A stretch of 24,177 nucleotides of DNA, from positions 1-24,177 of IMG/VR virus record IMGVR_UViG_3300037585_003527. One strand, given 5' to 3'. Each line of letters starts with the position of its first letter. Position 1 is the stretch's first letter. Shown piece by piece: positions 1 through 24,177 of the stretch. Below the pieces are notes generated by a model. The model was not told the DNA's origin, did no database searches, and was given only the letters and a program-made list of their open reading frames with translations. A program made the translations under genes and the position numbers. The DNA comes from a virus.

Positions 1-3000
1 CCCCTATAAGCCATTTACTAGAAATACCATACGATATTCAATATGGATCAGGATATAATCAACCGCAGATCCCTCTATTCAATAATAAATTAGATTTCAG
101 TACACTATCTGATATTAGTGGTAGTGATGTCGATGTAATTATATTTGACTCATCTATAGATCCAATGCATAGTGAATTTAAAAACCGTATAGGGGAGAGT
201 AGACTTCAACTTATTGATTGGGAATATTTGTATAATAATCCTAATACAACTTGGGAAGACTTACGTGCACATGATATAACTCTTAGTGAATTAGATGCTT
301 GCATTAAAGATGTATGTAATATTGCAGTTGATAATTTTATTGAAGCTAAAGGTGCTGATGCAACTATTGAAGAGATTGAAGCATTTGATTGGCCTCAGGA
401 AATAGAAACCATCTTATGTGGTACCAAACCTCGTGATTCACATGATCCAGATAATCAATCACAATGGGTTACACCTTGGACTTGGACTGGAAGAAATTAT
501 ACAGCACCATCTGGTAAATCGATGTGGCAACATCCACTGTTTAATAGATTAGGAAACTACTTACTGCATATAGTAACTAGACCTGCAAATTCCTCCACCC
601 ACTATCACGGTACAGCTGCAGCTGCAACTAGTGTAGGATTAGATACAGGGTGGGGATCAGATGCAACAATTTACTTTTTATCACATAATTTTAGGTTAAT
701 TAGTAGTGATGGTAAGATCCGTGATCATTCAGAAGGCGTAGGTCAATACCTACTATCTAAATTTCAAGAACTTAAAAAAGCTTCTAATAACATTAATACA
801 CTTACTGTAATAAATCACTCAGGCGGAAGTTTCAGTGGTGGACTCTTCGCGAATATGCGACATCATAGAATACCTACTCATGAGAAGATTTTTGGTAAAA
901 CAACTTCGAGTGCTGGGTTCTCAGGTTTATTCGGTTACACAGCTGTAACAATAGATGAAAATACGGAATTTTACTTATCACAAGTAAGTCAAAGTATCAT
1001 TGGTTATACACAATCACAACATGCTCATAACACTGGTGATACAACACAATGGCCAATGTTCCACCCCTGGTATACGTATTTTGGTGATATTAATGATAAA
1101 GATAGTATACTTGCCCATAATAAAAAAATAAATAATTTTATAGATCAGTATAAAATAAATAAAAGCGCCACTAATATGAATTTTGGTGTATATGGCGGTG
1201 AAGATGAACAGAATATAAACTTCCCATCAACTCGAGGTGCATATCACCGTATGTGGAGAACACTAGTAAGTGAATCTAACGTGTTAGCAGATTATCCTGG
1301 AGAGGTAGGTTATATAACTGCATCAGCAGAGCAATATCTTTTACTTGAATCTCACTCACATGATCCTAGCTATAATAAAGCACTACCTAGTAGTTACTGG
1401 GAAGATAGAGGTACAAGATTACAGGATGATATCATGTTTTGCAATCATCTCCACATTGCAAAGTGTTTCGTAACAGGTAGTGATGGTAGGACCATCGACA
1501 ATAGAAGTAAGCACTTAGACATAGCTACAGATAATGGTGCTATATACATCCACTCAGCTGGTAATACTCTCTTATCAAACAATGCAAATATAACAGAACA
1601 TGTTACAGAGGTCGGTGAATACCCCAAAGCTAAGTTACATAAGTATAATGATATAGCAGGTGATGGTGTTAATGTATATGATGATTACTATACTATCTTT
1701 AACACAGGATCACGGGTTATAACACCGAAGATAAAATGTAAGATATTTAGATCTGGATTAGATCACCCTGATCAGATAGTTCATCAAAATGAAGGTATTA
1801 TGTTGGATAAGGTCACTACTGCACCATCAGGTGTGTATCAAATTGGATTTTGTGACCCTAGTGATGAAATACTAAACAAGATACCATCAACACCGCAAGG
1901 GCTTATAATATCAAATTCATTATCAAACTATAGCTGCCAATCTGGAAGTATTTATGAGCTACAAGATATAAGCCCAGATAACTTTAAAAGAGTAACAGAT
2001 AGTGATTTAATGATTATGCCAATAGTATTATCAAGTTACGCATCAAGTTCGTGGGACCCTTTAGAAGATAGAAACAACGATCCTACACGACAGCCGTGTT
2101 TCTTAGGTGGTAATGCTAGATTTGACGATATAACTGTTCCATTTGATCCTACTATATATCAAAATTCCTTCTACCCTTCGTACGCTGTACTTGCTAATAA
2201 CCTTACATATGGTGGTACAACATCAACTCAGCGAAAAGTTCCTATAATTTATAAAACTTTTGTTGATAGTATAAATTATCAATTAAAAGGTAATATATCT
2301 CATAGTACAAATGTAGCAGAGTATGTAACTCAAAATTATCATACAGCATCATTAGCGGCTAGTAAAATTAGACGCTTATCTAATAACGAACCAGCATATG
2401 ATTGTTATCGAGGAAAAGGACAACCTAGCAAGACTAGTAGCTTTGAGTATATATATGGCTATCAAAAAAATGATGAGACTTTTACCTCAAGAGTGGATCG
2501 TGGCTTAGTACACCCATATATACTACCAAACGGTGAGTTAGCAAAATCAGAAAGTAATAACTTATCAACATATCTAAGTGATTTCCACCATGCAGGATTT
2601 GACGAGGATATGGCCATACCACGTATTAACCTAGATCCAACAAGTCCAAATAAGCCGCAGTATCTAGCATTATGTGATCCGAGATTACCTAACTCATTGA
2701 GAAGTGATATTGTTGGACTGGTAAGTTCAGCATCTGGTCTTGAGATGCAAGCAGATGGATGGATACCGTATGCTAATTATGTAGCTAGCTCATCAACATG
2801 GGAAAAAATATTTAGAGTGTTAAATGTAGGAAGAGGTGTTGGTCACTTTGGTCCACTTGGAAATGATCAAGCACTTAACTACCCTGTATCGATCACGACT
2901 ACTCATCCATGGGGCACCTCATTTACAGAATTGTCAAGTCTATATAATATTACATTTTCTTACTGTAATCATGATTGGTATGATGGTGGAATGAGAAATG

Positions 3001-6000
3001 GTGGTGCAGTAACTGGATTACATTCTAGTAGTATGATCAATTCAGAATATACTTATACTAGTGAATATGCAGATTCTAATAATGTGAACTATAATGGAAT
3101 GACGCTATCGCAATCAAATTATATATTTGAACAAGAGACAGATGATGAAGGAGCTCTAACAGGTGGTAGAGTTGTGTCTTATATTAATGGTGCTATAGCA
3201 TGGTATTCATGTTCACAAGATAAAGTACCATATACATTAATTGAAAGCGATGGTAAAATTGAGGAGTTTTTAACTGAAGTAAATGGTGAACTTCACTTTT
3301 CTGAGTCATTTGAATATCTCGCTACAACTGCATCCTATCATATGTACAATACTACTCATTATAATACAAATATAGCATGGAATGCACAAACAGAATTTTC
3401 ACAAACTTCAAGTTGGTGGTTAGCACAAACCTTGAATACCTCTGAAATATATTATGATACAACAGAGAGTAGAAAATATTATGATATCCCAATAAATAAT
3501 AACTTAAATACAGGGTTTATTAGCTATGATGTTACCTTCATGACAGCCCCGGTAGACACTATGGCACAATTACCTAATGGATTTTATATTAAATCTGCAA
3601 GCGGTGATCCTGATAGTATGGATTACTATATTAGTGAATCATCAATTACAGTGATAAATACAGATTCTCCGTTTCATGGCCACACATTTTCAGGTTCAGG
3701 AGTAACCGCTTATAATAGAGTGCCGCTACCGAGACATAATATAGATAATTACTTTACATCACCATATAATTTTAAGTCAAGAACATCAACTACAGCTGAT
3801 TATGAAGCTTCGAAGGATTTTGGTTATACGTCATATTCACCAATGTATGTTGCTGGATATTTTTCTTCCGGATCACTAGTATCACAATCTGTTAGTTTTC
3901 CTAAAATAACAGGAAATTTTCTAATGGGCACAGACGGTAGTTTAGGGGGATTTTTAGAAGAACTTGATGCAGTAGATCCTGATTTTATTTTAGAAGAAGT
4001 AAGTAATGTAGGGTCAAGTGCAACTACAGTTACTTTACCTGATGATTATATGATACATTATGCATCACAGTCACAGCAAGAATATGTAGAGGAAGTAATT
4101 GGCAATCGCCAAATTACAAATATAATGAATGATGTAGTTACAACAGATTGGATTACTGTAAATGAGTTAGATTTATACATTAACGGGTATATAACTACAG
4201 GGAGTATAATTCTTGTATCAGAATCTAATCAAAGTACTTTTGAATGGTATACAGGACTATTACCGTACTGTGGCGTTACATCAATAACTGCTGGAACACC
4301 GTATTTTAATAACTGTATTACTGTAGGTGGTGTTGAGCCTAGAGCGATTGCAGATGACCCTACCAGCTTAGCTATAGGCCCAAATCAAACATATTGGATT
4401 GAAGGTGGATTTGAAGGTACTGTAACTGAACCTCAACTATCAATACACACTAGTAGTGGTAAATTTATAGTAAAACATCAGACACATTCTTTTTATAATG
4501 CAGAGTTATTAGAAACATTAGATAATAGTGGTTCAGTGTCTTATACGAGAAAATCTCTCAGAAGAGCTTATGGTAGCAGTAGTGGCCATCCGTTTGGAGG
4601 GTATGTGAATGAACCTGATGGAGGTTATAGATTTAAATACACGCAATCATATAATAACACATCATCAGGTAATTCATATACATCAGGTCCTGTAGGTATT
4701 CCACTTCATAGGCCAAAGAGACATAATTGGGTTAATCAATATTCTCACGGTAGTCACATAAACGTACAGGCATTAGGTGCGATGACTTATGCTGGTACAC
4801 ATGTGGCTTCCATTAATAGTTCCTTTCCATATTATATTTTCACAGAAGAAAAAGATGAACTGAGAAAATATCATGGTTTAACATACACTAATTACCCGCA
4901 GTTGGTAAATCTACAGGATACTGATATAAGTGTTGAAGTGTTACCAACAGGAGATGTTGTATCGAGGTTAGATACCTCTGAAGGATATAATGTGCAGAGG
5001 AAGAGGCATTACCATAAAAGGAATCTACCAGAAACAGATGGTGGGTATAGCTATTATAAGAGTTTTAGCGGTACATCAGCAGCTTCACCGCAAGTGACTG
5101 GTGTTGCATCTTTAATAGGGCAACTTGATCCAACTGCTAACGTAACCACAATGATTAAGTATTTAGATCACTTATCATATAAAACCGCAATAGGATCTTT
5201 ATCAGGTATTGGACCAAATGCACCGGAGCATGATAAGGACTTAGGTGTTAATGATTTTGAAAAATGGTATCATGGAATGTGGTTCTGGGGAGGAGATATG
5301 GAAGGAACAAGCGAAAACATAAGGCAATACAACTACAGTAAAATTAGTGCAGAAAAAGCTGATCAAATTTCACAGGACTATTATCCTAATTATCAATCCG
5401 AAGGCCACAGTAGTACACCAAACACGCGATACTACCGTACAGGAATGCAAGGTGAGGCTAGAGATACGAGTTTAACAACATTCTTGGGTAAAAAGACATC
5501 ACAAGCAGCAGTGGAAGATATAATAGGGTTATGTAATGGTACGTATGGATATACTTGGGATTATATAGTTGAGAATAATGGTATAGTTCCTATGTCATTC
5601 AAGCCAGGCTTTGACCCCGCATCGGACGATCATTACTTTAGATATTTCCCAGGTGGATCTGCTTCTGTCCATTCACCTAGCGTTGAATATATAAATTTCA
5701 CACGGACCTCTATGAATCATACTCCAACATCTTCTGTTAAGAACTGGTATGGTGCATTTCCTGATGATCCATATAATGGTATGGCGTGGAGTGTATTTGA
5801 TAATATTATGTACCCTAAATTTCTCGGTGGTCAATCGAACACTTTTTATGATGAGTTTGCACAGTATATGAAGATTGTAGGTATAAATCCAAAACTAGGT
5901 GTAGATGCAGGTACCTACCCTGACGGTGATAATGGACCCTTTGCAACTGGTATGGGTAGACAGCAATGGTTAGTACCATTACTTACACCAAACACCACAG

Positions 6001-6626
6001 AATCTTACTACGATTCGATCCCGAGCACAACTCGTGGTGTGACAGGACCACACTGGATGAGTGAGATCTTAAGAAGACGATACTTAGGTACTTGGAATAG
6101 ATTAACGTTTACGCAACCGTATATACATTACGATACAACACAAAATGTACTTCACTGGCCATATAGAGAAGTATCGTCATTTGCAACAGACCCTGAATTT
6201 AATTTAACAAATATTGTACCTACTACACCATCTCCTGGATCTTGGCAAAATTCTAATAAAGGATTAGGTAGTAATTTAGAGTTATTAGGTGATATGACAT
6301 TCAAGACAGATGGAATTTCACCTACACCGATTAGTACACCAAGTGTCGTATCAGGAGAAATAACTCCAATAATATCACTCAACAACCTCTATACGGAAGG
6401 ATCAGAATTAAATTTACCAGATGAGACTGATTATATCGGTAGTTACCACATTCACTATACACATGGTGCGATGGTCGGTGCAGAGCATACTACAATACCT
6501 CATAATATGTTAACACCTACAACCACTCAATTCTCTGAAAGTATTGTTAGTATTATGAGTTTATTAGCTGTAGGTGATACATCAGTTGACTCTGGAATGG
6601 GAGACGTATCTAGTGGTGGATACTAG
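1..6626 (+). CDS. Giant virion-associated subtilase-like protein, 5' truncated by the window edge
   Basis: The reading frame is open from position 3 through the ATG at 165 to the TAG at 6624-6626, so the start lies outside the window and Met165 is internal. Subtilisin (S8) landmarks occur in order. The Asp motif VIIFDSSIDPMH has its Asp codon at 147-149. Numbering from Met165, HGTAAAAT has His148, VINHSGG is at 215-221, HSAGN has the oxyanion Asn467, ITVGGVE is at 1385-1391 and GTSAASP has Ser1638. In ordinary subtilisins these lie within about 200 residues; here the loops between them hold insertions of roughly 80 to 900 residues. The inserted sequence is rich in Tyr, Ser, Thr and Asn and I recognise no other domain in it. 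The gene lies just upstream of the neck gene, where T4-like phages often carry large tail or fibre genes. A virion or tail-surface protease is inferred; catalytic activity is plausible because the triad is intact. Confidence 0.75.
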   Translation, partial: PISHLLEIPYDIQYGSGYNQPQIPLFNNKLDFSTLSDISGSDVDVIIFDSSIDPMHSEFKNRIGESRLQLIDWEYLYNNPNTTWEDLRAHDITLSELDACIKDVCNIAVDNFIEAKGADATIEEIEAFDWPQEIETILCGTKPRDSHDPDNQSQWVTPWTWTGRNYTAPSGKSMWQHPLFNRLGNYLLHIVTRPANSSTHYHGTAAAATSVGLDTGWGSDATIYFLSHNFRLISSDGKIRDHSEGVGQYLLSKFQELKKASNNINTLTVINHSGGSFSGGLFANMRHHRIPTHEKIFGKTTSSAGFSGLFGYTAVTIDENTEFYLSQVSQSIIGYTQSQHAHNTGDTTQWPMFHPWYTYFGDINDKDSILAHNKKINNFIDQYKINKSATNMNFGVYGGEDEQNINFPSTRGAYHRMWRTLVSESNVLADYPGEVGYITASAEQYLLLESHSHDPSYNKALPSSYWEDRGTRLQDDIMFCNHLHIAKCFVTGSDGRTIDNRSKHLDIATDNGAIYIHSAGNTLLSNNANITEHVTEVGEYPKAKLHKYNDIAGDGVNVYDDYYTIFNTGSRVITPKIKCKIFRSGLDHPDQIVHQNEGIMLDKVTTAPSGVYQIGFCDPSDEILNKIPSTPQGLIISNSLSNYSCQSGSIYELQDISPDNFKRVTDSDLMIMPIVLSSYASSSWDPLEDRNNDPTRQPCFLGGNARFDDITVPFDPTIYQNSFYPSYAVLANNLTYGGTTSTQRKVPIIYKTFVDSINYQLKGNISHSTNVAEYVTQNYHTASLAASKIRRLSNNEPAYDCYRGKGQPSKTSSFEYIYGYQKNDETFTSRVDRGLVHPYILPNGELAKSESNNLSTYLSDFHHAGFDEDMAIPRINLDPTSPNKPQYLALCDPRLPNSLRSDIVGLVSSASGLEMQADGWIPYANYVASSSTWEKIFRVLNVGRGVGHFGPLGNDQALNYPVSITTTHPWGTSFTELSSLYNITFSYCNHDWYDGGMRNGGAVTGLHSSSMINSEYTYTSEYADSNNVNYNGMTLSQSNYIFEQETDDEGALTGGRVVSYINGAIAWYSCSQDKVPYTLIESDGKIEEFLTEVNGELHFSESFEYLATTASYHMYNTTHYNTNIAWNAQTEFSQTSSWWLAQTLNTSEIYYDTTESRKYYDIPINNNLNTGFISYDVTFMTAPVDTMAQLPNGFYIKSASGDPDSMDYYISESSITVINTDSPFHGHTFSGSGVTAYNRVPLPRHNIDNYFTSPYNFKSRTSTTADYEASKDFGYTSYSPMYVAGYFSSGSLVSQSVSFPKITGNFLMGTDGSLGGFLEELDAVDPDFILEEVSNVGSSATTVTLPDDYMIHYASQSQQEYVEEVIGNRQITNIMNDVVTTDWITVNELDLYINGYITTGSIILVSESNQSTFEWYTGLLPYCGVTSITAGTPYFNNCITVGGVEPRAIADDPTSLAIGPNQTYWIEGGFEGTVTEPQLSIHTSSGKFIVKHQTHSFYNAELLETLDNSGSVSYTRKSLRRAYGSSSGHPFGGYVNEPDGGYRFKYTQSYNNTSSGNSYTSGPVGIPLHRPKRHNWVNQYSHGSHINVQALGAMTYAGTHVASINSSFPYYIFTEEKDELRKYHGLTYTNYPQLVNLQDTDISVEVLPTGDVVSRLDTSEGYNVQRKRHYHKRNLPETDGGYSYYKSFSGTSAASPQVTGVASLIGQLDPTANVTTMIKYLDHLSYKTAIGSLSGIGPNAPEHDKDLGVNDFEKWYHGMWFWGGDMEGTSENIRQYNYSKISAEKADQISQDYYPNYQSEGHSSTPNTRYYRTGMQGEARDTSLTTFLGKKTSQAAVEDIIGLCNGTYGYTWDYIVENNGIVPMSFKPGFDPASDDHYFRYFPGGSASVHSPSVEYINFTRTSMNHTPTSSVKNWYGAFPDDPYNGMAWSVFDNIMYPKFLGGQSNTFYDEFAQYMKIVGINPKLGVDAGTYPDGDNGPFATGMGRQQWLVPLLTPNTTESYYDSIPSTTRGVTGPHWMSEILRRRYLGTWNRLTFTQPYIHYDTTQNVLHWPYREVSSFATDPEFNLTNIVPTTPSPGSWQNSNKGLGSNLELLGDMTFKTDGISPTPISTPSVVSGEITPIISLNNLYTEGSELNLPDETDYIGSYHIHYTHGAMVGAEHTTIPHNMLTPTTTQFSESIVSIMSLLAVGDTSVDSGMGDVSSGGY

Positions 6627-6656: not shown

Positions 6657-6675
6657 ATATTTATAATATATAACT
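6657..6675 (+). promoter_or_regulatory. Candidate late promoter element (ATATTTATAATATATAACT)
   Basis: This 19-nt AT-rich element lies in the 63-nt gap before the neck gene and is repeated perfectly at 15001-15019. It contains TATTTATA and TATAAT and ends 14 nt before the ATG. No -35 box is convincing, which would fit a T4-type late promoter, but the T4 consensus TATAAATA is the reverse complement of TATTTATA, so function is inferred only from its recurrence upstream of genes. Confidence 0.45.
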
Positions 6676-9416: not shown

Positions 9417-11123
9417 ATGGCAATTAAAATAACCGGTGATGAAATAAGATTTACAAGTGCTAGTGGTGAGATAACTACATATAAGCAAGAAGATGCAAAA
9501 GAAGTTTTTGTAAAAAGGAAATCTGATGATGGATTACCTATGAAGCGTCTGCGATCTTTTGAAAGTGCATCGACATTTATCGATCTTAATGCATCAGGTA
9601 TAACTCCTTCAGGTCACTCAGCCCCTAGACCTGGAATGATTAAAGGGGATACTATTGATATTTTTGTAAAAGATACTTATGAAGCACTTCATATAGATTC
9701 ACACCTAATATCTATAGGACCTAAATCAAACACTCGTTTAGAATTAACAGGTTCTTTATTTAGTAATGGAATATCAGGTTCATTTGATTATAGTAATGTT
9801 AGTTGGATGCAACTTGAAAATATGGCAATGGATATAACTCAAGGAGGATTTTTTGGATTAGCAGTTTCAGGTTCTACATTAGCATCTAACTTATATAATA
9901 TGGCTAATAATCTATCCGGATTCTTTTTAACTGGTAGCAATGTAATTATATCAGGTTCAACAGAATTATCAGGTTCTACAATAATTACAGGTGGTGATAC
10001 ACAAATAACTGGAAGTCTTATCCAATCAGGTTCAACTACATTAACAGGTGGTGATGTAATTATATCCGGTTCTACAGAATTATCAGGTTCAACAATAATT
10101 ACTGGAGGTGATACTGAAATTACAGGATCAACAATTATATCAGGTTCAACAATAATTACTGGAGGTGATACGCAGATAACTGGGTCAACAATTATATCAG
10201 GTTCAACAACTATTACAGGAGGCGATACACAGATAACAGGTTCAACTGTAATCTCTGGTTCAACAATTATTACTGGTGGTGATACTGAAATAACTGGTTC
10301 AACAATTATATCTGGTTCAACAATTATTACGGGTGGTGATACACAAATAACAGGATCAACAATATTATCCGGTTCTACAGTAATCACCGGAGGAGATACT
10401 GAAATAACAGGGTCGACAACTATATCAGGTTCTACAGTAATCACCGGAGGAGATACTGAAATAACAGGGTCGACAACTATATCAGGTTCAACTACAGTTA
10501 TTATATCAGAATTCACTCAATCAGGTACTTCAATATTTGATGGTGGAACAACAACATTTACAGGTATATCAGGTTCATTATCAGCTTCGTTATCTGGATC
10601 AGATATAGCTGTAGAAGTATCAGGTACTATATCAGTGGATGGAGACGTAGCAGTAAATTATACTAATAATGCTCCAATATCATCATCATTAACATTAACA
10701 AATGGAGCCCATGGGTTAGGTAGAACACTAAATGTTAGAAGTGGTTCTAGTCCTTATATACCTTCTGGTCCATATAGCGGATTACCTGTAACTACAGGTG
10801 TATATAACGCAAATCCTGCAGGAGAATTAGAATTAACATTACCTGCCGCTACAATTGGGTTATCATTCCATGTTAGAAATTGCGGAGTTAATACATTCCC
10901 ATATGTCCAGTCTGGTTATCAAGGACCGCCATCAATAAAAATTTCTCCATCAGGAAGTAATAAATTTATATATGGAGCAGGTGGTAGTACCGGCGTAGCT
11001 GGAAAAGCAATAATAAATCATTCATCTTCATTTCAAATGGGAGATTTTGCAGTTGTAAGCTGTGTTTCACAATCTCATTGGATGATTCAACAAATGGGTG
11101 GAACATGGACAGATGAAGCATAA
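9417..11123 (+). CDS. Repeat-containing beta-helix-like virion protein (fibre or decoration)
   Basis: A 568-aa protein in three parts. Residues 1 to about 170 are a mixed N-terminal region starting AIKITGDEIRFTSASGE. Residues about 174-362 are nine tandem 19-residue units of the type ITGSTIISGSTIITGGDTQ, each with a GGD turn spaced exactly 19 residues apart from Gly192 to Gly344. The remaining ~200 residues form a C-terminal region with LELTLPAATIGLSFHVRNCG and an ending HWMIQQMGGTWTDEA. The regular Ile/Val, Ser/Thr and Gly pattern suggests one beta-helix coil per unit, as in phage fibres. The last part resembles C-terminal domains I have seen on phage virion proteins. AAGG at 9406-9409 supports the start. 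It sits between gp15 and gp18, where T4 has the terminase genes, so it is probably a late structural or fibre protein. Exact role is unknown. Confidence 0.65.
   Translation: MAIKITGDEIRFTSASGEITTYKQEDAKEVFVKRKSDDGLPMKRLRSFESASTFIDLNASGITPSGHSAPRPGMIKGDTIDIFVKDTYEALHIDSHLISIGPKSNTRLELTGSLFSNGISGSFDYSNVSWMQLENMAMDITQGGFFGLAVSGSTLASNLYNMANNLSGFFLTGSNVIISGSTELSGSTIITGGDTQITGSLIQSGSTTLTGGDVIISGSTELSGSTIITGGDTEITGSTIISGSTIITGGDTQITGSTIISGSTTITGGDTQITGSTVISGSTIITGGDTEITGSTIISGSTIITGGDTQITGSTILSGSTVITGGDTEITGSTTISGSTVITGGDTEITGSTTISGSTTVIISEFTQSGTSIFDGGTTTFTGISGSLSASLSGSDIAVEVSGTISVDGDVAVNYTNNAPISSSLTLTNGAHGLGRTLNVRSGSSPYIPSGPYSGLPVTTGVYNANPAGELELTLPAATIGLSFHVRNCGVNTFPYVQSGYQGPPSIKISPSGSNKFIYGAGGSTGVAGKAIINHSSSFQMGDFAVVSCVSQSHWMIQQMGGTWTDEA
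9936..10489 (+). repeat. Tandem 57-nt coding repeats, nine units
   Basis: In-frame tandem array inside the fibre-like gene. The GGD (GGT/GGA first codon) landmark occurs at 9990, 10047, 10104, 10161, 10218, 10275, 10332, 10389 and 10446, strictly every 57 nt. Most units differ at synonymous or conservative positions, so the array is old. However, 10371-10432 and 10428-10489 are identical over 62 nt, which indicates one very recent duplication of a unit. It is not a CRISPR array: there are no unique spacers and the reading frame is maintained. Confidence 0.95.
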
Positions 11124-18310: not shown

Positions 18311-21300
18311 ATGTCTAGTTTTAGAGGAATAGTATTAGATTCAATTCACCCTAATATTAAAACTGCATTAGATAAAGAAACTGCAGGGTTTACTCGTGAA
18401 GATGGACGATCATATCAACATATTACATCACGAACTCCATGGATGAGATCCGTGCCATTTACTGTCCCTGTAAATCCAGATGAAATGGAGATACCAGTAC
18501 CTAGATGGCAAGAATGGGTTTTATATTCACAGAAAGGTACAGATAGAAATGATCCCAAGAAAGTTACGCAATTTGGTAGAGCAGGTGTAGCAGGAGATAG
18601 CACTGGGCTATATCGTAGTAATCTTAGAAATACACCAATACCGGGTATTACAAGTATTCGAGTTAGTAATAAAGGTGATTTAGGTACATTACGTCGAGCA
18701 ACATTAGCTATCAAATGTTATCATGAAGCAGACTTACATGAATTAGAGATGATGTATATGGTCCCTGGTGTTAGTATCCTATTAGAATGGGGATGGTATT
18801 CAGAGGTAAAAAGTCAGCAACCGATATTTTTAGGTGATTTAGAAGACAATGGTAGATTAAATAATATAACCAAAATTCAAGAAGAGTTATTAAAGAAAAC
18901 TTTAGATATTGATAGTTTATTAGTTCAGCATAATCATGAAGGATCATTAGAAACTAGTGCTGGTTTATATGATGGATTAATAGGAGTTGTTACAAAATTT
19001 AATTGGTCTAATGCATCTGATGGATCATATGATATACAGATTGATATAATTGCTCCGAATAGCTTAACATTAGGTGTACCTACAGAGACTTATAAGTTAG
19101 GTGGTAATATAATAGATCCAGAAGATGGTAAATCAACACCAGTTACAGATGTTGATGTAATATATTATAAAATAAATACAAAATCTTCTCGAATTGAGGG
19201 AGATGCATCCAAGCAAGCTGTACAGCAAAATGAGAATATATCGCGAAATGCTGTATCGACAATAGATGAATTCTCTGATTCATTGATGTTTGAAGAAGCT
19301 TCTATGTTAAGTTTAGAAACTTCTGCTCTAAAAAATAGTTTTGGATTCGTTGAGTTTTATGAAGAAGATGGCGAACTTAAAGCAAAAATAGTACAAGACG
19401 ATCCAGAACAAGCACTTTCAGAAGTTGAGCATGAAGAGCCTGTATATGAATACACTGAGGAAAGCTGGTTATTCGGAACATCTACTACAATGGAAGTTAC
19501 TGCAGAATTCGCAGCGAATAATGAAGACGCTGTTAAAACAGATAGAACGGTGAAGGATGGAACTAGAGATTTAGTAATTAAAGATAAGGATGGTAAAGAA
19601 ATATACGCTGGAAATTATCTATCAGGAGTGGTTAAAAATGATTTATCAAATTTAATTGAGCAAGCCATTGCAGCTCATTCTAGAGAATTAAGTGCAAAAG
19701 TAGATCAGCAGCAAGAATCAGAAATAGAATTTGCAAGCCAAATAGAGTATGCAACTCAAGATGATGTAAATTATTTATCATGGAAAAGAGTTATATTTGA
19801 GCAAGGTTATGATCAAAAATCAGTTCCTATAATGACTTGTGACGAAGGAATAGGGACTACTATTCCACGAGCTCGTGAAATATCATTTATGGCAGAGAAT
19901 AATGAGATGGGAATATCTGCATATAGTGAAACATATGTGAGTTGGAGATTTATAGAAGAGTACATTATCAATGAACTATTCATGCCGCGTATGGAAGATA
20001 ATACTCTAGCAATTAAATTTATGAGTATGCATCCAATACCAGTAGTACCTGAAGAAGATCAAGAAGTTACAGAAGAAGATGTTTTATACGAGAGTGTAAA
20101 AATAATTAATAATCCATGGATTAGATCATTAGATCCTAGAGTGTGTATACTGCCAGGGCAAGAATATGATGCATCATTAATTACACGACTACCTGGATCA
20201 GATCCGACATTTGAAATGAAAAATCACTTCTATGTTGATACATCAGCGACGGAAGGGTACCTACGTAATATACTAATTAATATAAATATAGTTAGAGAAG
20301 CTGCAGAAGATTCAGAAAGCGTTAATGATTTTGCAATGGAGATTTTATCACAAGTATCAGAAGCATGTGGAAACCCTTGGTCATTTAAAGTAATTACAAA
20401 TACAGCATTACAGCAAGTTATGATTATCGATGAAAATCATAAAGGGAATCATAAAGGATATAAGGAAGCAGCAGATCAAAGGTCAAATGTAGCATATAGA
20501 TTCTCAGGTATTGGGACAAATAATATATGTAAAGATGTTAAAATTCAAACAAAGTTACCGAGTGAAATTCAAACCATGGCTTACTATGCAGCAAGTGGAG
20601 CAGGGTCATCTACTGGAGCTGATCTTAATATGTTTAAATTATATGGAGCAGGATTACGTGATAGAATGAAACCTAATTTCCAAGCTAATGAAACAACTGC
20701 TAAAGAGAAGGAAGCTAAAGAGAAGAATGAGCGAGATAATACATATAAAAGATATTGGGAGTTAGTAAAAAAGACTCGTACAGATACTTTACATGGATTA
20801 GAAAAAAGTAAAGCGTATAAACAAGGAACAAAAATTGCTACCAACTTTGCGAAGATATTTATATTAGATGCATCCGATAATAATCCATCATATGGACCAC
20901 CTATCCCGATAGATATATCTCTAACATTAAATGGTATATCTGGAATATATATGGGTAATGCAATTATGCTAGATACTGTTGATGATGGTGGAATGCTACC
21001 AAGTAGATATAAGAATATTGTAGCACTACAAACTACAGCTGTAGATCAAGATGTATCAGCAGATGGATGGACTACAAATATAAGTACACTAATGCGACCA
21101 ATGAAAACATTAGAAGCAGTTGAAGTTAAATTACGAGAGCCTGCAATGTCTATACCAAATTATGTAACGAAAGTTGAAACGGTAGATGATAAAGAGAATG
21201 CATTACCGGTAGTTGAAGAGTTTGCACAACATCTAACACATACGGGAGTTCCATATGTTCACGGTACACCACAACCATCTCAGGAATTCTATAAAATTAG

Positions 21301-21748
21301 AGGTAGTCAGTCAAATGGATTATTTGCAACTCAAAATGATGATGAAGAGTATTTTGCAGCATTAATATTCCCGTCATGGATTGCACTAACTAGAGAAGCT
21401 AAATCAGCTGGTATTAAGCTACAAGTAAATGATTCTTGGAGATCATTTGAGAAACAAGATTACTTATATCAAGGTCGACAAGATTATAAAGCACGTGGAG
21501 AGACGCCACCAGTATTCCATCCAGCAGATCAAGCAGGGTGGTCAAAACATCAATCAGGTATCGGAATAGACGTAAATTCATATCCAGAAGATCATTATAA
21601 ATGGATGGTAAATCACGCTCATAGATTTGGATTTAGACGAAATGTGCAAGGTGAAGCATGGCACTGGGTGTATCAACCAAATGAGGGTATTTATTCAAAA
21701 GTTCCAAAAGATCATGAATCTTGGAGAGGACAGGAGGCAATTGTATAA
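18311..21748 (+). CDS. Baseplate hub protein fused to an M15 (VanY-type) peptidoglycan peptidase
   Basis: A 1145-aa protein. Residues about 90-265 contain NTPIPGITSIRVSNKGDLG, LRRATLAIKCYHEADLHELE and MYMVPGVSILLEWGW, a pattern I recall from gp27-type hub proteins of marine T4-like phages. Residues about 290-490 are a charged, Glu/Asp-rich insertion. A second conserved core runs to about 960 and includes SEACGNPWSFKV. The C-terminal ~130 residues are an M15 D-Ala-D-Ala carboxypeptidase/endopeptidase-like domain: SWRSFEKQDYLY, SKHQSGIGIDVN with His1080 and Asp1087, and GEAWHWVY with Glu1115 and His1118, so all zinc ligands and the catalytic Glu are present. T4 uses a gp5 lysozyme at this place; a peptide-cutting enzyme here would serve the same penetration step. 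GAGG at 18301-18304 supports the start. The stop overlaps the next ATG (TAATG). Confidence 0.8.
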   Translation: MSSFRGIVLDSIHPNIKTALDKETAGFTREDGRSYQHITSRTPWMRSVPFTVPVNPDEMEIPVPRWQEWVLYSQKGTDRNDPKKVTQFGRAGVAGDSTGLYRSNLRNTPIPGITSIRVSNKGDLGTLRRATLAIKCYHEADLHELEMMYMVPGVSILLEWGWYSEVKSQQPIFLGDLEDNGRLNNITKIQEELLKKTLDIDSLLVQHNHEGSLETSAGLYDGLIGVVTKFNWSNASDGSYDIQIDIIAPNSLTLGVPTETYKLGGNIIDPEDGKSTPVTDVDVIYYKINTKSSRIEGDASKQAVQQNENISRNAVSTIDEFSDSLMFEEASMLSLETSALKNSFGFVEFYEEDGELKAKIVQDDPEQALSEVEHEEPVYEYTEESWLFGTSTTMEVTAEFAANNEDAVKTDRTVKDGTRDLVIKDKDGKEIYAGNYLSGVVKNDLSNLIEQAIAAHSRELSAKVDQQQESEIEFASQIEYATQDDVNYLSWKRVIFEQGYDQKSVPIMTCDEGIGTTIPRAREISFMAENNEMGISAYSETYVSWRFIEEYIINELFMPRMEDNTLAIKFMSMHPIPVVPEEDQEVTEEDVLYESVKIINNPWIRSLDPRVCILPGQEYDASLITRLPGSDPTFEMKNHFYVDTSATEGYLRNILININIVREAAEDSESVNDFAMEILSQVSEACGNPWSFKVITNTALQQVMIIDENHKGNHKGYKEAADQRSNVAYRFSGIGTNNICKDVKIQTKLPSEIQTMAYYAASGAGSSTGADLNMFKLYGAGLRDRMKPNFQANETTAKEKEAKEKNERDNTYKRYWELVKKTRTDTLHGLEKSKAYKQGTKIATNFAKIFILDASDNNPSYGPPIPIDISLTLNGISGIYMGNAIMLDTVDDGGMLPSRYKNIVALQTTAVDQDVSADGWTTNISTLMRPMKTLEAVEVKLREPAMSIPNYVTKVETVDDKENALPVVEEFAQHLTHTGVPYVHGTPQPSQEFYKIRGSQSNGLFATQNDDEEYFAALIFPSWIALTREAKSAGIKLQVNDSWRSFEKQDYLYQGRQDYKARGETPPVFHPADQAGWSKHQSGIGIDVNSYPEDHYKWMVNHAHRFGFRRNVQGEAWHWVYQPNEGIYSKVPKDHESWRGQEAIV

Positions 21749-22206
21749 TGGTAGATGATTTAGAAGCGTACGCGCATAAGATAAATAGTAAGATAAGTGA
21801 AGAGGCTATGTTACATACATATAAAGCTCTATCTAACAAAAAAGTAAAAGATGTACATCCAGGTGTAAAATCACATTACCCTGTACCTAGACCGAAAGAC
21901 TATAATAAAGGATTTATCCGTCGCCATTTCTTTATTAGATATGATGGTGGTATAACTGAAGTTAGTAGTAAAGAAGCTAGTAGGAAGAAAACAATAGTGC
22001 CTAGAGATTTATATACATATGTGATAGTTAAGTGGAGGATTGTTGACAGTGTTGTAATACCAACTGGAGTATTTAAAGATAATCCAACAACGGCAGATGT
22101 AAATGAGTTTTATATACGTGAAGGTAGTAAAACGTTATCAACAATACTACAAAGAACTTTCCGACAATATTTCTATGATTTAGAAGCGTTTAAGTTGTCT
22201 ACTTAA
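21748..22206 (+). CDS. Phage protein of unknown function, probably baseplate-associated
   Basis: A 152-aa protein starting MVDDLEAYAHKI. I chose ATG 21748, which overlaps the hub stop codon (TAATG at 21746-21750) and has AGGAGG at 21732-21737, over an upstream in-frame TTG at 21721. Visible features are YPVPRPKDYNKGFIRRHFFIRYDGG near residues 43-67, then a Lys/Ser-rich link, a YTYVIVKWRIVDSVV strand pair, and a helical ending LSTILQRTFRQYFYDLEAF. The Pro-x-Pro-x-x-x-Asp-Tyr-x-x-Gly-x-Ile-Arg-Arg start followed by Lys-Trp-Arg-Ile recalls a small conserved protein of T4-like marine phages that has no assigned function. Translational coupling to the hub suggests a baseplate or hub partner. There is no signal peptide or membrane segment. 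Confidence 0.65.
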   Translation: MVDDLEAYAHKINSKISEEAMLHTYKALSNKKVKDVHPGVKSHYPVPRPKDYNKGFIRRHFFIRYDGGITEVSSKEASRKKTIVPRDLYTYVIVKWRIVDSVVIPTGVFKDNPTTADVNEFYIREGSKTLSTILQRTFRQYFYDLEAFKLST

Positions 22207-22245: not shown

Positions 22246-23523
22246 ATGATTGTAGATAGCGATCTGATTCTCAGTGAATTGAAGTCTAAGTATAAAGACT
22301 CGGAAAATATTGTTATACCTATTTATAGTGATGTTAATAAACATCGCATACATAATCGTGTATCTCTATTATATATTTATAATATAAACACTAAAAGTGA
22401 ATATATTATCCCTATCAATCATTCCGATAAAATCCATAATATCAGAGATTTGAATTTCATAAATAATGATAATAAGACATATACGTATAGCAGTGGAATT
22501 GAAAATTCAGTAAATATAGATGCGTTATATTATTTCCACAAATCTACAAATATAAAAGAATCTGATTTATATACAAATGCACATGCATATTACTATAATA
22601 GATGTTGGAGATTAAATAATATTAATGATATAATACCTCTATTAAAGCATAAAGAATACTGTAAGAAGATAGTAGATATTATATTACCATTATTAGAATT
22701 ATGTAATGAACCTGGATTTACTGAGTATAATGATGTATTACTGCCACAATTAAAACAAATTGAATCCGCAGGATTATATACAACTGATAATATACTAGAG
22801 CATACAAGGTATAATCCATGGTCTATTACAGGTCGTCCTAGTAATGCATTTAATGGTATAAATTACGCTGCTTTGAATAAAGATGATGAAACGAGAGAGC
22901 GATATATTAGTAGATTTGATGATGGTAAATTAGTTGAATTTGATTATGATGCATATCACTTAAGATTGATTGCTAATATAATTGATTATAAATTACCAGA
23001 TACTTCTATACATGCATACTTAGGAAAGTATTATTTCGATAAAGAACTGCTAACAGAAGATGAATATAATGAATCAAAATCAATAACGTTTAAAATACTA
23101 TATGGTGGGATTCCTAAAGAATTCGAGAATATACCATTCTTCAGTGAAATAAAGAAGTATATTTTTGAAGTTTGGGATATTTATAAGCGTAAAGGTTATG
23201 TACAAACACCAATTTTTAAACGTAAAATCTATAGAGATAATTTAAAATCACGTGATATAAAACCACAAACATTATTTAATTATACAATACAGGCTGTAGA
23301 GACGGAGCAAAATATTAACGTTATAAAAGATATACACACATTCTTAAACGATAAAAAGACTAAGCTAATACTATATACGTATGATGCAATGCTATTCGAT
23401 CTACATCCATCTGAAGCTAACATAATGAAAGATATTTCAAACCTAATGAAATTCCCAGTTAAATGTAAGACTGGTAGAGATTATAAAAATATGAAAGCTT
23501 TTGATTTTAAACTGCTTGGTTGA
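22246..23523 (+). CDS. Reduced family A DNA polymerase-like protein with altered active-site motifs
   Basis: A 425-aa protein with family A polymerase landmarks in order. These are TGRPSN at 195-200; motif A DYDAYHLR with Asp233 (E. coli Pol I Asp705); motif B with Lys278, Phe282 and Tyr286 in ESKSITFKILYGG; a Gln in FNYTIQAVETEQN; and motif C as YDA at 379-381, where Asp380 is the second metal ligand. Departures from Pol I are His238 for the steric-gate Glu710, Tyr274 for Arg754, and Tyr-Asp-Ala for His-Asp-Glu. Residues 1 to about 140 may be the remains of a 3'-5' exonuclease fold (SLLYIYNINTKSEYIIPINH), but I see no DEDD residues. Full-length Pol I is 928 aa and the Klenow fragment about 605. 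AAAGG at 22235-22239 supports the start. The gene sits inside a structural cluster, 39 nt after the preceding gene. Both catalytic Asp residues remain, so activity is possible but unproven. Confidence 0.8.
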   Translation: MIVDSDLILSELKSKYKDSENIVIPIYSDVNKHRIHNRVSLLYIYNINTKSEYIIPINHSDKIHNIRDLNFINNDNKTYTYSSGIENSVNIDALYYFHKSTNIKESDLYTNAHAYYYNRCWRLNNINDIIPLLKHKEYCKKIVDIILPLLELCNEPGFTEYNDVLLPQLKQIESAGLYTTDNILEHTRYNPWSITGRPSNAFNGINYAALNKDDETRERYISRFDDGKLVEFDYDAYHLRLIANIIDYKLPDTSIHAYLGKYYFDKELLTEDEYNESKSITFKILYGGIPKEFENIPFFSEIKKYIFEVWDIYKRKGYVQTPIFKRKIYRDNLKSRDIKPQTLFNYTIQAVETEQNINVIKDIHTFLNDKKTKLILYTYDAMLFDLHPSEANIMKDISNLMKFPVKCKTGRDYKNMKAFDFKLLG

Positions 23524-23543: not shown

Positions 23544-24177
23544 ATGAAATATTTTATACAGAAAGCATTAGCAGATTGGGCATATCGTGTAAATGACGGT
23601 TGTCCAGATCCCCACAATAGAACTCATATTCAAGTATTAGAGAGTGTTCTACGTCAATATGGTTGCTCTGAGCAATTCATTTCCGAATATGTTACACGCG
23701 TGTATAGTCCGCAACTAACTGAAGATGGTAAAGATGATCAATATGTGCACAAAAGCAGCGGTGTGTGGGTTAAGAAGGGTCAAGAAGATAATGAAGATGC
23801 AACAAAGTATGAGAAGACAGATGATGGTCAGTATAAAGAGTTAGAAGGTGAAGAAGAATCAGGTGAAGATAATAGAGAGTATACTAAAAATATGCTTCTA
23901 ACACCAGAGCCTGGATCTGATGCAGCTGAGAAAGAGAGTGAAGAAGATACAGAAGATAAAAAAGGTGAAGAGGACGGTGATGTAGGTGAGTTTAGTGGTA
24001 AGGATAAATCCTTAAAAGATACAGATACTATAAACTCTGAAACGTATACTAACCCTGATACAGGTGTAGATGATGAAGAGTTTGAAAACGGACCTATAAA
24101 TTCTATTTATGAAAATAGTGAAGATGAGCTTAAGTCTGAAGATTTAGATGAGTATTTTAAATCCGATAAGATACCAA
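23544..24177 (+). CDS. Acidic phage protein, 3' truncated by the window edge
   Basis: An open frame of 211 codons from ATG 23544 to the right edge with no stop, so the gene continues outside. AGG at 23535-23537 is a modest ribosome binding site. The N-terminus KYFIQKALADWAYRVNDGCPDPHNRTHI... (residues 2-30) continues into LESVLRQYGCSEQFISEYV, a helical module that I recall at the start of large structural or scaffold-like proteins of marine T4-like phages. From about residue 60 the sequence is extremely acidic and low-complexity (runs of Glu, Asp, Lys, Gly and Ser) with no hydrophobic core, so it is probably disordered, with PxPGS-like and YTNPDTG fragments. The function is unknown; placement after the baseplate block suggests a further wedge or structural protein. 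Confidence 0.7.
   Translation, partial: MKYFIQKALADWAYRVNDGCPDPHNRTHIQVLESVLRQYGCSEQFISEYVTRVYSPQLTEDGKDDQYVHKSSGVWVKKGQEDNEDATKYEKTDDGQYKELEGEEESGEDNREYTKNMLLTPEPGSDAAEKESEEDTEDKKGEEDGDVGEFSGKDKSLKDTDTINSETYTNPDTGVDDEEFENGPINSIYENSEDELKSEDLDEYFKSDKIP

Follow-up and report, generated by a model that had tools for sequence, protein, structure and literature searches.

DivPolA1 is a phage variant of the family A DNA polymerase (PolA), published in 2024 and described in the text of that paper as accompanying a regular polymerase (PMC11348598). Its members include gp001 of the immuto phages (MW353175-7), QDP51333 and CAB4155247, and within the literature that we searched the name divPolA1 is used only by this paper and its preprint. 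The text presents divPolA2 of the barbaviruses (AUR84708) as a second case of an extra, thumb-poor PolA beside a regular replicase. However, according to that text the genes around divPolA2 vary and its N-terminal domain is unrelated, whereas the divPolA1 neighbourhood is constant; moreover, AUR84708 had no detectable profile similarity to divPolA1 (1.0 bits with hmmsearch, probability 0.1 with hhalign). The gene analyzed here occupies positions 22246–23523 (+ strand, as are all window features given below) of IMG/VR virus record IMGVR_UViG_3300037585_003527, which was examined over its complete length of 24,177 nucleotides and is referred to as the window. It is a new member of divPolA1, a phage-specific family of family A DNA polymerases, in a marine T4-like phage. 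The open reading frame (ORF), Pfam matching, conservation, an AlphaFold model and profile alignment all entered into its designation as the gene of a 425-residue, presumably accessory, polymerase. Taken as a whole, we consider it somewhat probable that the product is an accessory, thumb-poor enzyme that fills gaps together with the neighbouring 5'-3' exonuclease, SSB and RecA.

The ORF is intact, with 425 codons followed by a stop, and residues 211–401 of the product match the Pfam DNA_pol_A model (PF00476; E 1.3e-9) above the curated cut-off, which bears out an earlier sequence-only reading that had placed a 425-residue PolA-like protein here. Immuto gp001 is homologous to the window protein along the full length, and a tblastn search with the latter gave 32.6% identity across 90% of the query in the immuto phages (E 4e-55). 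As far as the published text describes the family, the window protein shares with it the kept palm residues, a truncated thumb, the lack of a visible exonuclease site and, going by its close relatives, the presence of a regular polymerase besides and the same downstream replication genes; what differs is that the gene is new and that the sister clade of the window protein no longer has any of the exonuclease domain's beta part. Of 26 records with a divPolA1 gene, the Pfam model picks it up in only 12, so these genes are easily missed in annotation; the copy in Mel-JY01 is annotated as hypothetical. When 84,980 bacterial and archaeal species genomes were scanned with a single sequence no match was obtained, and with an alignment as the query seven contigs of metagenome-assembled genomes matched. 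A cellular source was rejected, since five of the seven bear tail or replication genes of the divPolA1 neighbourhood and therefore look like phage contigs binned with their hosts.

Motif registers were taken from two independent alignments, one made with MAFFT and eight ordinary PolA proteins, the other a profile alignment of 37 relatives with E. coli Pol I. The two agreed on the following: (i) motif A (residues 233–240, DYDAYHLR; 22942–22965) places Asp233 at Asp705 and His238 at Glu710, the steric gate; (ii) motif B, or O helix (residues 274–287; 23065–23106), places Tyr274 at Arg754, Lys278 at Lys758, Phe282 at Phe762 and Tyr286 at Tyr766; and (iii) motif C (residues 377–385, YTYDAMLFD; 23374–23400) places Tyr379 at His881, Asp380 at Asp882 and Ala381 at Glu883, and ends in Asp385. 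Asp233 and Asp380 are the metal Asps, and the MAFFT alignment identified Arg197 (22834–22836), Asn345 and Gln349 as kept counterparts of Arg668, Asn845 and Gln849. Family A polymerases are described as conserving a Glu at the steric gate (PMC12529929); the window protein lacks it and has His238 instead. The assignments that the sequence-only reading had made for the Asp residues of motifs A and C and for His238, Tyr274 and Ala381 thus hold in both alignments.

Conservation was assessed among 73 relatives, down to approximately 30% identity, including Flavobacterium phage immuto, Microcystis phage Mel-JY01 and the 484-kb LR756508. Residues D233, D235, H238, Y274, K278, F282, Y286, G287 and R197 are identical in 73/73, as are Y379 and D380 in every relative sequence extending that far, and this conservation excludes chance for the motif registers. 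Because of this invariance and a ratio of nonsynonymous to synonymous substitutions of 0.05–0.12 among the six closest genes, the unusual residues are, as judged from sequence comparison, a fixed signature under purifying selection and not the result of decay. At position 381, 39 of the relatives have Ser and 33 have Ala. The sequence-only reading had correctly seen an Ala at Glu883 in its YDA version of motif C, but the oddity of this residue is weaker than supposed: five of the eight ordinary PolA proteins have Ser at this position, and immuto gp199 has Gln. Those with Ser carry an Asp further along motif C, like D385 of the window protein. All eight retain Glu710, Arg754 and His881 (MAFFT). 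Going by these alignments, His at 710 and Tyr at 754 and 881 mark the divPolA1 clade, whereas Ala or Ser at 883 is ordinary in phage PolA. The DNA polymerase of Roseobacter phage CRP-3 gave the top score among the ordinary PolA proteins that were compared with the divPolA1 profile (E 1.4e-17) and resembles the family in motif C, where it has Ser at Glu883 and, six residues beyond the His, an Asp (compare Y379 and D385). In contrast, it is 705 residues long, has a full thumb region and the steric-gate Glu, and retains Arg754 and His881.

Since the steric-gate His is invariant, altered handling of sugars or nucleotides becomes more interesting, and sugar selection could be tested directly in a natural enzyme. 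It could be that this His and the Tyr at Arg754 permit ribonucleotides or unusual priming or extension, with lesion bypass or priming as the function. However, Tyr286 (Tyr766) is kept, and a His-Tyr pair could therefore still block the 2'-OH. DnaG-type primases were found in immuto, Mel-JY01, LR756508 and three long contigs, so divPolA1 is not needed as a primase there, and we regard this explanation as improbable. Just as improbable, in our estimate, is a joint reading in which a polymerase consisting of palm and fingers only, with a lineage-wide Glu-to-His gate that alters sugar or primer choice, forms one half of a two-gene Pol I. The candidacy of divPolA1 as the phage's primase was itself rejected on the basis of the DnaG-type genes in these six longer records; the absence of such a gene from short fragments is uninformative.

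The AlphaFold model of the window protein (predicted local distance difference test [pLDDT] 90.3, predicted template modelling score 0.88) matched the Klenow-type and Bst Pol I large fragments over residues 1–417, with Z scores of 25–26, approximately 390 aligned residues and a root-mean-square deviation of 3.3–4 Å. The likeness to these enzymes comprises the palm and fingers fold, the two metal Asps, Lys758, Phe762, Tyr766, Arg668 and an N-terminal exonuclease-like fold. The window protein differs from them in the replacements of Glu710 by His and of Arg754 and His881 by Tyr, and in two shortened regions: the stretch between the counterparts of residues 544 and 656 is reduced from the 111 residues of the E. 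coli Pol I thumb (545–655) to nine in the alignment (residues 177–185; 22774–22800), so that the thumb is essentially gone, and the fingers have 28 residues instead of 44 between motif B and the conserved block that follows it. A further difference from Pol I is that the 5'-3' exonuclease of divPolA1 phages is a separate downstream gene. In the structural comparison the N-terminal part overlies the exonuclease-type domain of Bst Pol I, and since the model superposes on the Pol I large fragments from residue 1, the beta-rich residues 1–90 (22246–22515) are read as the remnant of a vestigial 3'-5' exonuclease domain. Inspection of the translation revealed no canonical DxE exonuclease motif, in line with the earlier description of a divergent PolA lacking a visible exonuclease site. 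Residues 91–176 (22516–22773) form, by DSSP of the model, a helical segment running into the palm.

In relatives of 332–354 residues the beta part of the exonuclease domain is missing too, while the helical segment is retained. These short forms are one clade (support 98/85), sister to that of the window protein (95/89 for the pair); the tree had CRP-3 and E. coli PolA as outgroups, and long branches leave its deepest splits unsure. One short form was modelled with confidence (pLDDT 90.7) and consists of the helical segment, palm and fingers. For neither model was an RNA polymerase among the 50 best structural matches shown, which does not thereby exclude an activity of that type. Having neither thumb nor exonuclease fold, the short forms are smaller than any other family A polymerase encountered here and would test how little of the polymerase hand suffices.

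With three side chains important in the Pol I active site replaced and the thumb almost gone, divPolA1 might be a catalytically dead scaffold or DNA-binding subunit of a replication or recombination complex. Unlike what is expected of a pseudoenzyme, however, the metal Asps and the counterparts of Lys758, Phe762, Tyr766, Arg668, Asn845 and Gln849 are kept across deep divergence, and we hold a dead protein to be very unlikely. Catalytic activity of divPolA1 is predicted with good confidence.

We surveyed 26 records carrying divPolA1 for a main replicase. A family B polymerase (PolB) was found in 17 of them, among which are Mel-JY01, where it occurs besides divPolA1, and a contig with a 97%-identical divPolA1 (G012), where an 842-residue PolB (E 5e-45) shares the contig with replication genes after divPolA1. 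The gp43-type enzyme that the sequence-only reading had suggested looking for thus exists in a close relative; for the phage of the window, itself a 24-kb fragment, G012 serves as the proxy in this respect. PolC was detected in four records (G003, G009, G022 and LR756508 [W03]), the last of which matches both PolB and PolC. PolB was not found in immuto, which has a 777-residue PolA with a 3'-5' exonuclease domain; five fragments gave no replicase match, which means little in fragments. Hence the second polymerase stays while the main replicase switches among families A, B and C, and its retention through these changes suggests a job that the replicases do not do.

The same pattern has a converse interpretation, namely that divPolA1 shares in copying the genome: it is conserved while the regular polymerase switches family, and it is embedded beside ssb, recA, exo and helicase genes while the text of PMC11348598 places the regular polymerases in variable neighbourhoods. 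This we consider unlikely, though it is the alternative to which we give the most weight. A nine-residue thumb and no visible proofreading site lead one to expect low processivity and fidelity, and most of the longer relatives possess a complete gp43-like or PolC replicase. The 97%-identical relative possesses a PolB of the gp43 type besides, and we therefore believe that the role of divPolA1 is probably accessory and not that of the main replicative enzyme.

Other features of these genomes were observed during the survey. In LR756508.1 (W03; 484 kb) the PolB matches fall on two open frames of 1022 and 625 residues, and coordinates 260623–266900 and 47415–48068 cover the PolB and PolC matches. 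The full-length PolA of immuto adjoins GroES and GroEL genes (NC_055915.1, 37898–42237), and 7-deazaguanine DNA modification is represented in this genome by QueC/D/E/F and DpdA genes; a QueD-like gene also follows the replication module of L001, a contig described below.

The right end of the window hides the downstream context of the gene, which was instead supplied by L001, whose divPolA1 product is 97% identical to the window protein. In L001, divPolA1 is followed by a gene of 492 codons, two small genes, a gp32-type SSB, RecA and a Pol I-type 5'-3' exonuclease, and further downstream by a DnaB-type helicase, a class II ribonucleotide reductase and the QueD-like protein. Tail genes come first, followed on the same strand by the LysM wedge, the hub, divPolA1, ssb, RecA, the 5'-3' exonuclease and DnaB; this arrangement covers 80 IMG/VR loci together with immuto, Mel-JY01 and LR756508, where flanks suffice and neighbours are detectable (the immuto record begins at the divPolA1 gene). 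L001 and the other relatives therefore put divPolA1 at the boundary between the tail and replication modules, and its apparent location "inside a tail gene cluster", as first described, came about because the contig ends before the replication genes. A reverse scan of viral contigs, seeded only with an alignment of the 5'-3' exonuclease, yielded 80 loci. DivPolA1 was present upstream in 17/17 loci with at least 9 kb of upstream DNA (E 1e-104 or better), and the remaining loci either stop short of its expected place or have it at a smaller distance. The two sets share at least one contig and so are not wholly independent. In the sections of PMC11348598 covered here we found no mention of the clade-wide Glu-to-His, Arg-to-Tyr and His-to-Tyr changes, of the monophyletic loss of the exonuclease beta domain or of the fixed exonuclease linkage tested from the exonuclease side, some of which its figures or supplements may show.

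Upstream of divPolA1 in the window are a baseplate hub gene (18311–21748), which has at its C-terminus a VanY D-Ala-D-Ala carboxypeptidase domain (PF02557, E 1.2e-9) and whose syntenic counterpart in immuto bears the annotation carboxypeptidase, and a small conserved gene of no known family (21748–22206; ORF list and synteny), from which divPolA1 is separated by 39 bases. With the hub gene and one small gene preceding it at so short a gap, co-transcription with late genes is possible, and divPolA1 could act late or in association with the virion, repairing DNA ends in packaging or entry. We think this very improbable: replication genes lie downstream across the family, and the packaging or entry role originally proposed from the tail location finds no support, given the ssb, recA, 5'-3' exonuclease and helicase genes that follow in relatives with sufficient flank, including immuto, Mel-JY01 and LR756508. 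The 39-base gap contains no T4-type late promoter TATTTATA. This motif resembles the T4 late promoter TATAAATA and occurs 12 times in the window versus 7.1 expected, a count that was reached by 6 of 100 shuffles and is not above chance. By eye its placement looks non-random, since copies at 6658, 7835, 11162, 13904, 15002 and 23524 lie approximately 17–50 bases before likely starts with AGGAG-type sites.

In the preferred explanation, that of an accessory gap-filling polymerase, a complete catalytic core on the palm and shortened fingers would make an active enzyme, which with almost no thumb and a vestigial exonuclease would hold DNA weakly, have little processivity, be non-proofreading and need help in gripping DNA. 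It would fill gaps at Okazaki junctions or in recombination intermediates with the Pol I-type 5'-3' exonuclease, the gp32-type SSB and RecA, the polymerase and the exonuclease being in effect a Pol I split into two genes. Because the 5'-3' exonuclease is encoded a few genes from the polymerase half, a two-gene Pol I is the simplest account, and a partnership of the two in gap filling is put forward tentatively. Several points weigh against this explanation. Three residues of importance to Pol I (Arg754, His881 and Glu710) have been exchanged in divPolA1; a nearly thumbless family A polymerase might bind DNA too poorly alone; the common synteny may reflect the descent of one lineage and not a joint function; and we found no biochemical, expression or virion data for any member of the family. 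RM378 was considered as a precedent for a split family A polymerase and rejected: Rm378p092 belongs by its matches to other families of phage DNA polymerases (phrog_1918 and phrog_262) and, when aligned, is without PolA motifs, while the match of Rm378p012 is to phrog_107, the 5'-3' exonuclease family.

The gene downstream of divPolA1 is cut by the contig end (23544–24176); the ATG at 23544 is preferred over the TTG at 23520 as its start. It had been taken for a structural gene, an assignment that finds no backing in its full-length, 492-residue homologue in L001 (1442–2920, + strand), which gave no significant Pfam or PHROG match. A stretch of this homologue, LDHKVSLDNGGKDEPANWEFME, resembles an HNH nuclease motif, without a supporting Pfam match. 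Elsewhere in the window, the gene at 9417–11123 encodes a tail protein made of repeats like GGDTQITGSTIISGSTI, the sole match of which is phrog_5070, a PHROG of unknown function. The tail region also contains an ORF of at least 2207 residues (3–6626) with a subtilase match (PF00082) at approximately residues 1674–1717 that includes GTSAASP; Asp- and His-type protease motifs are seemingly located near its start, so that a very large insert may divide the protease.
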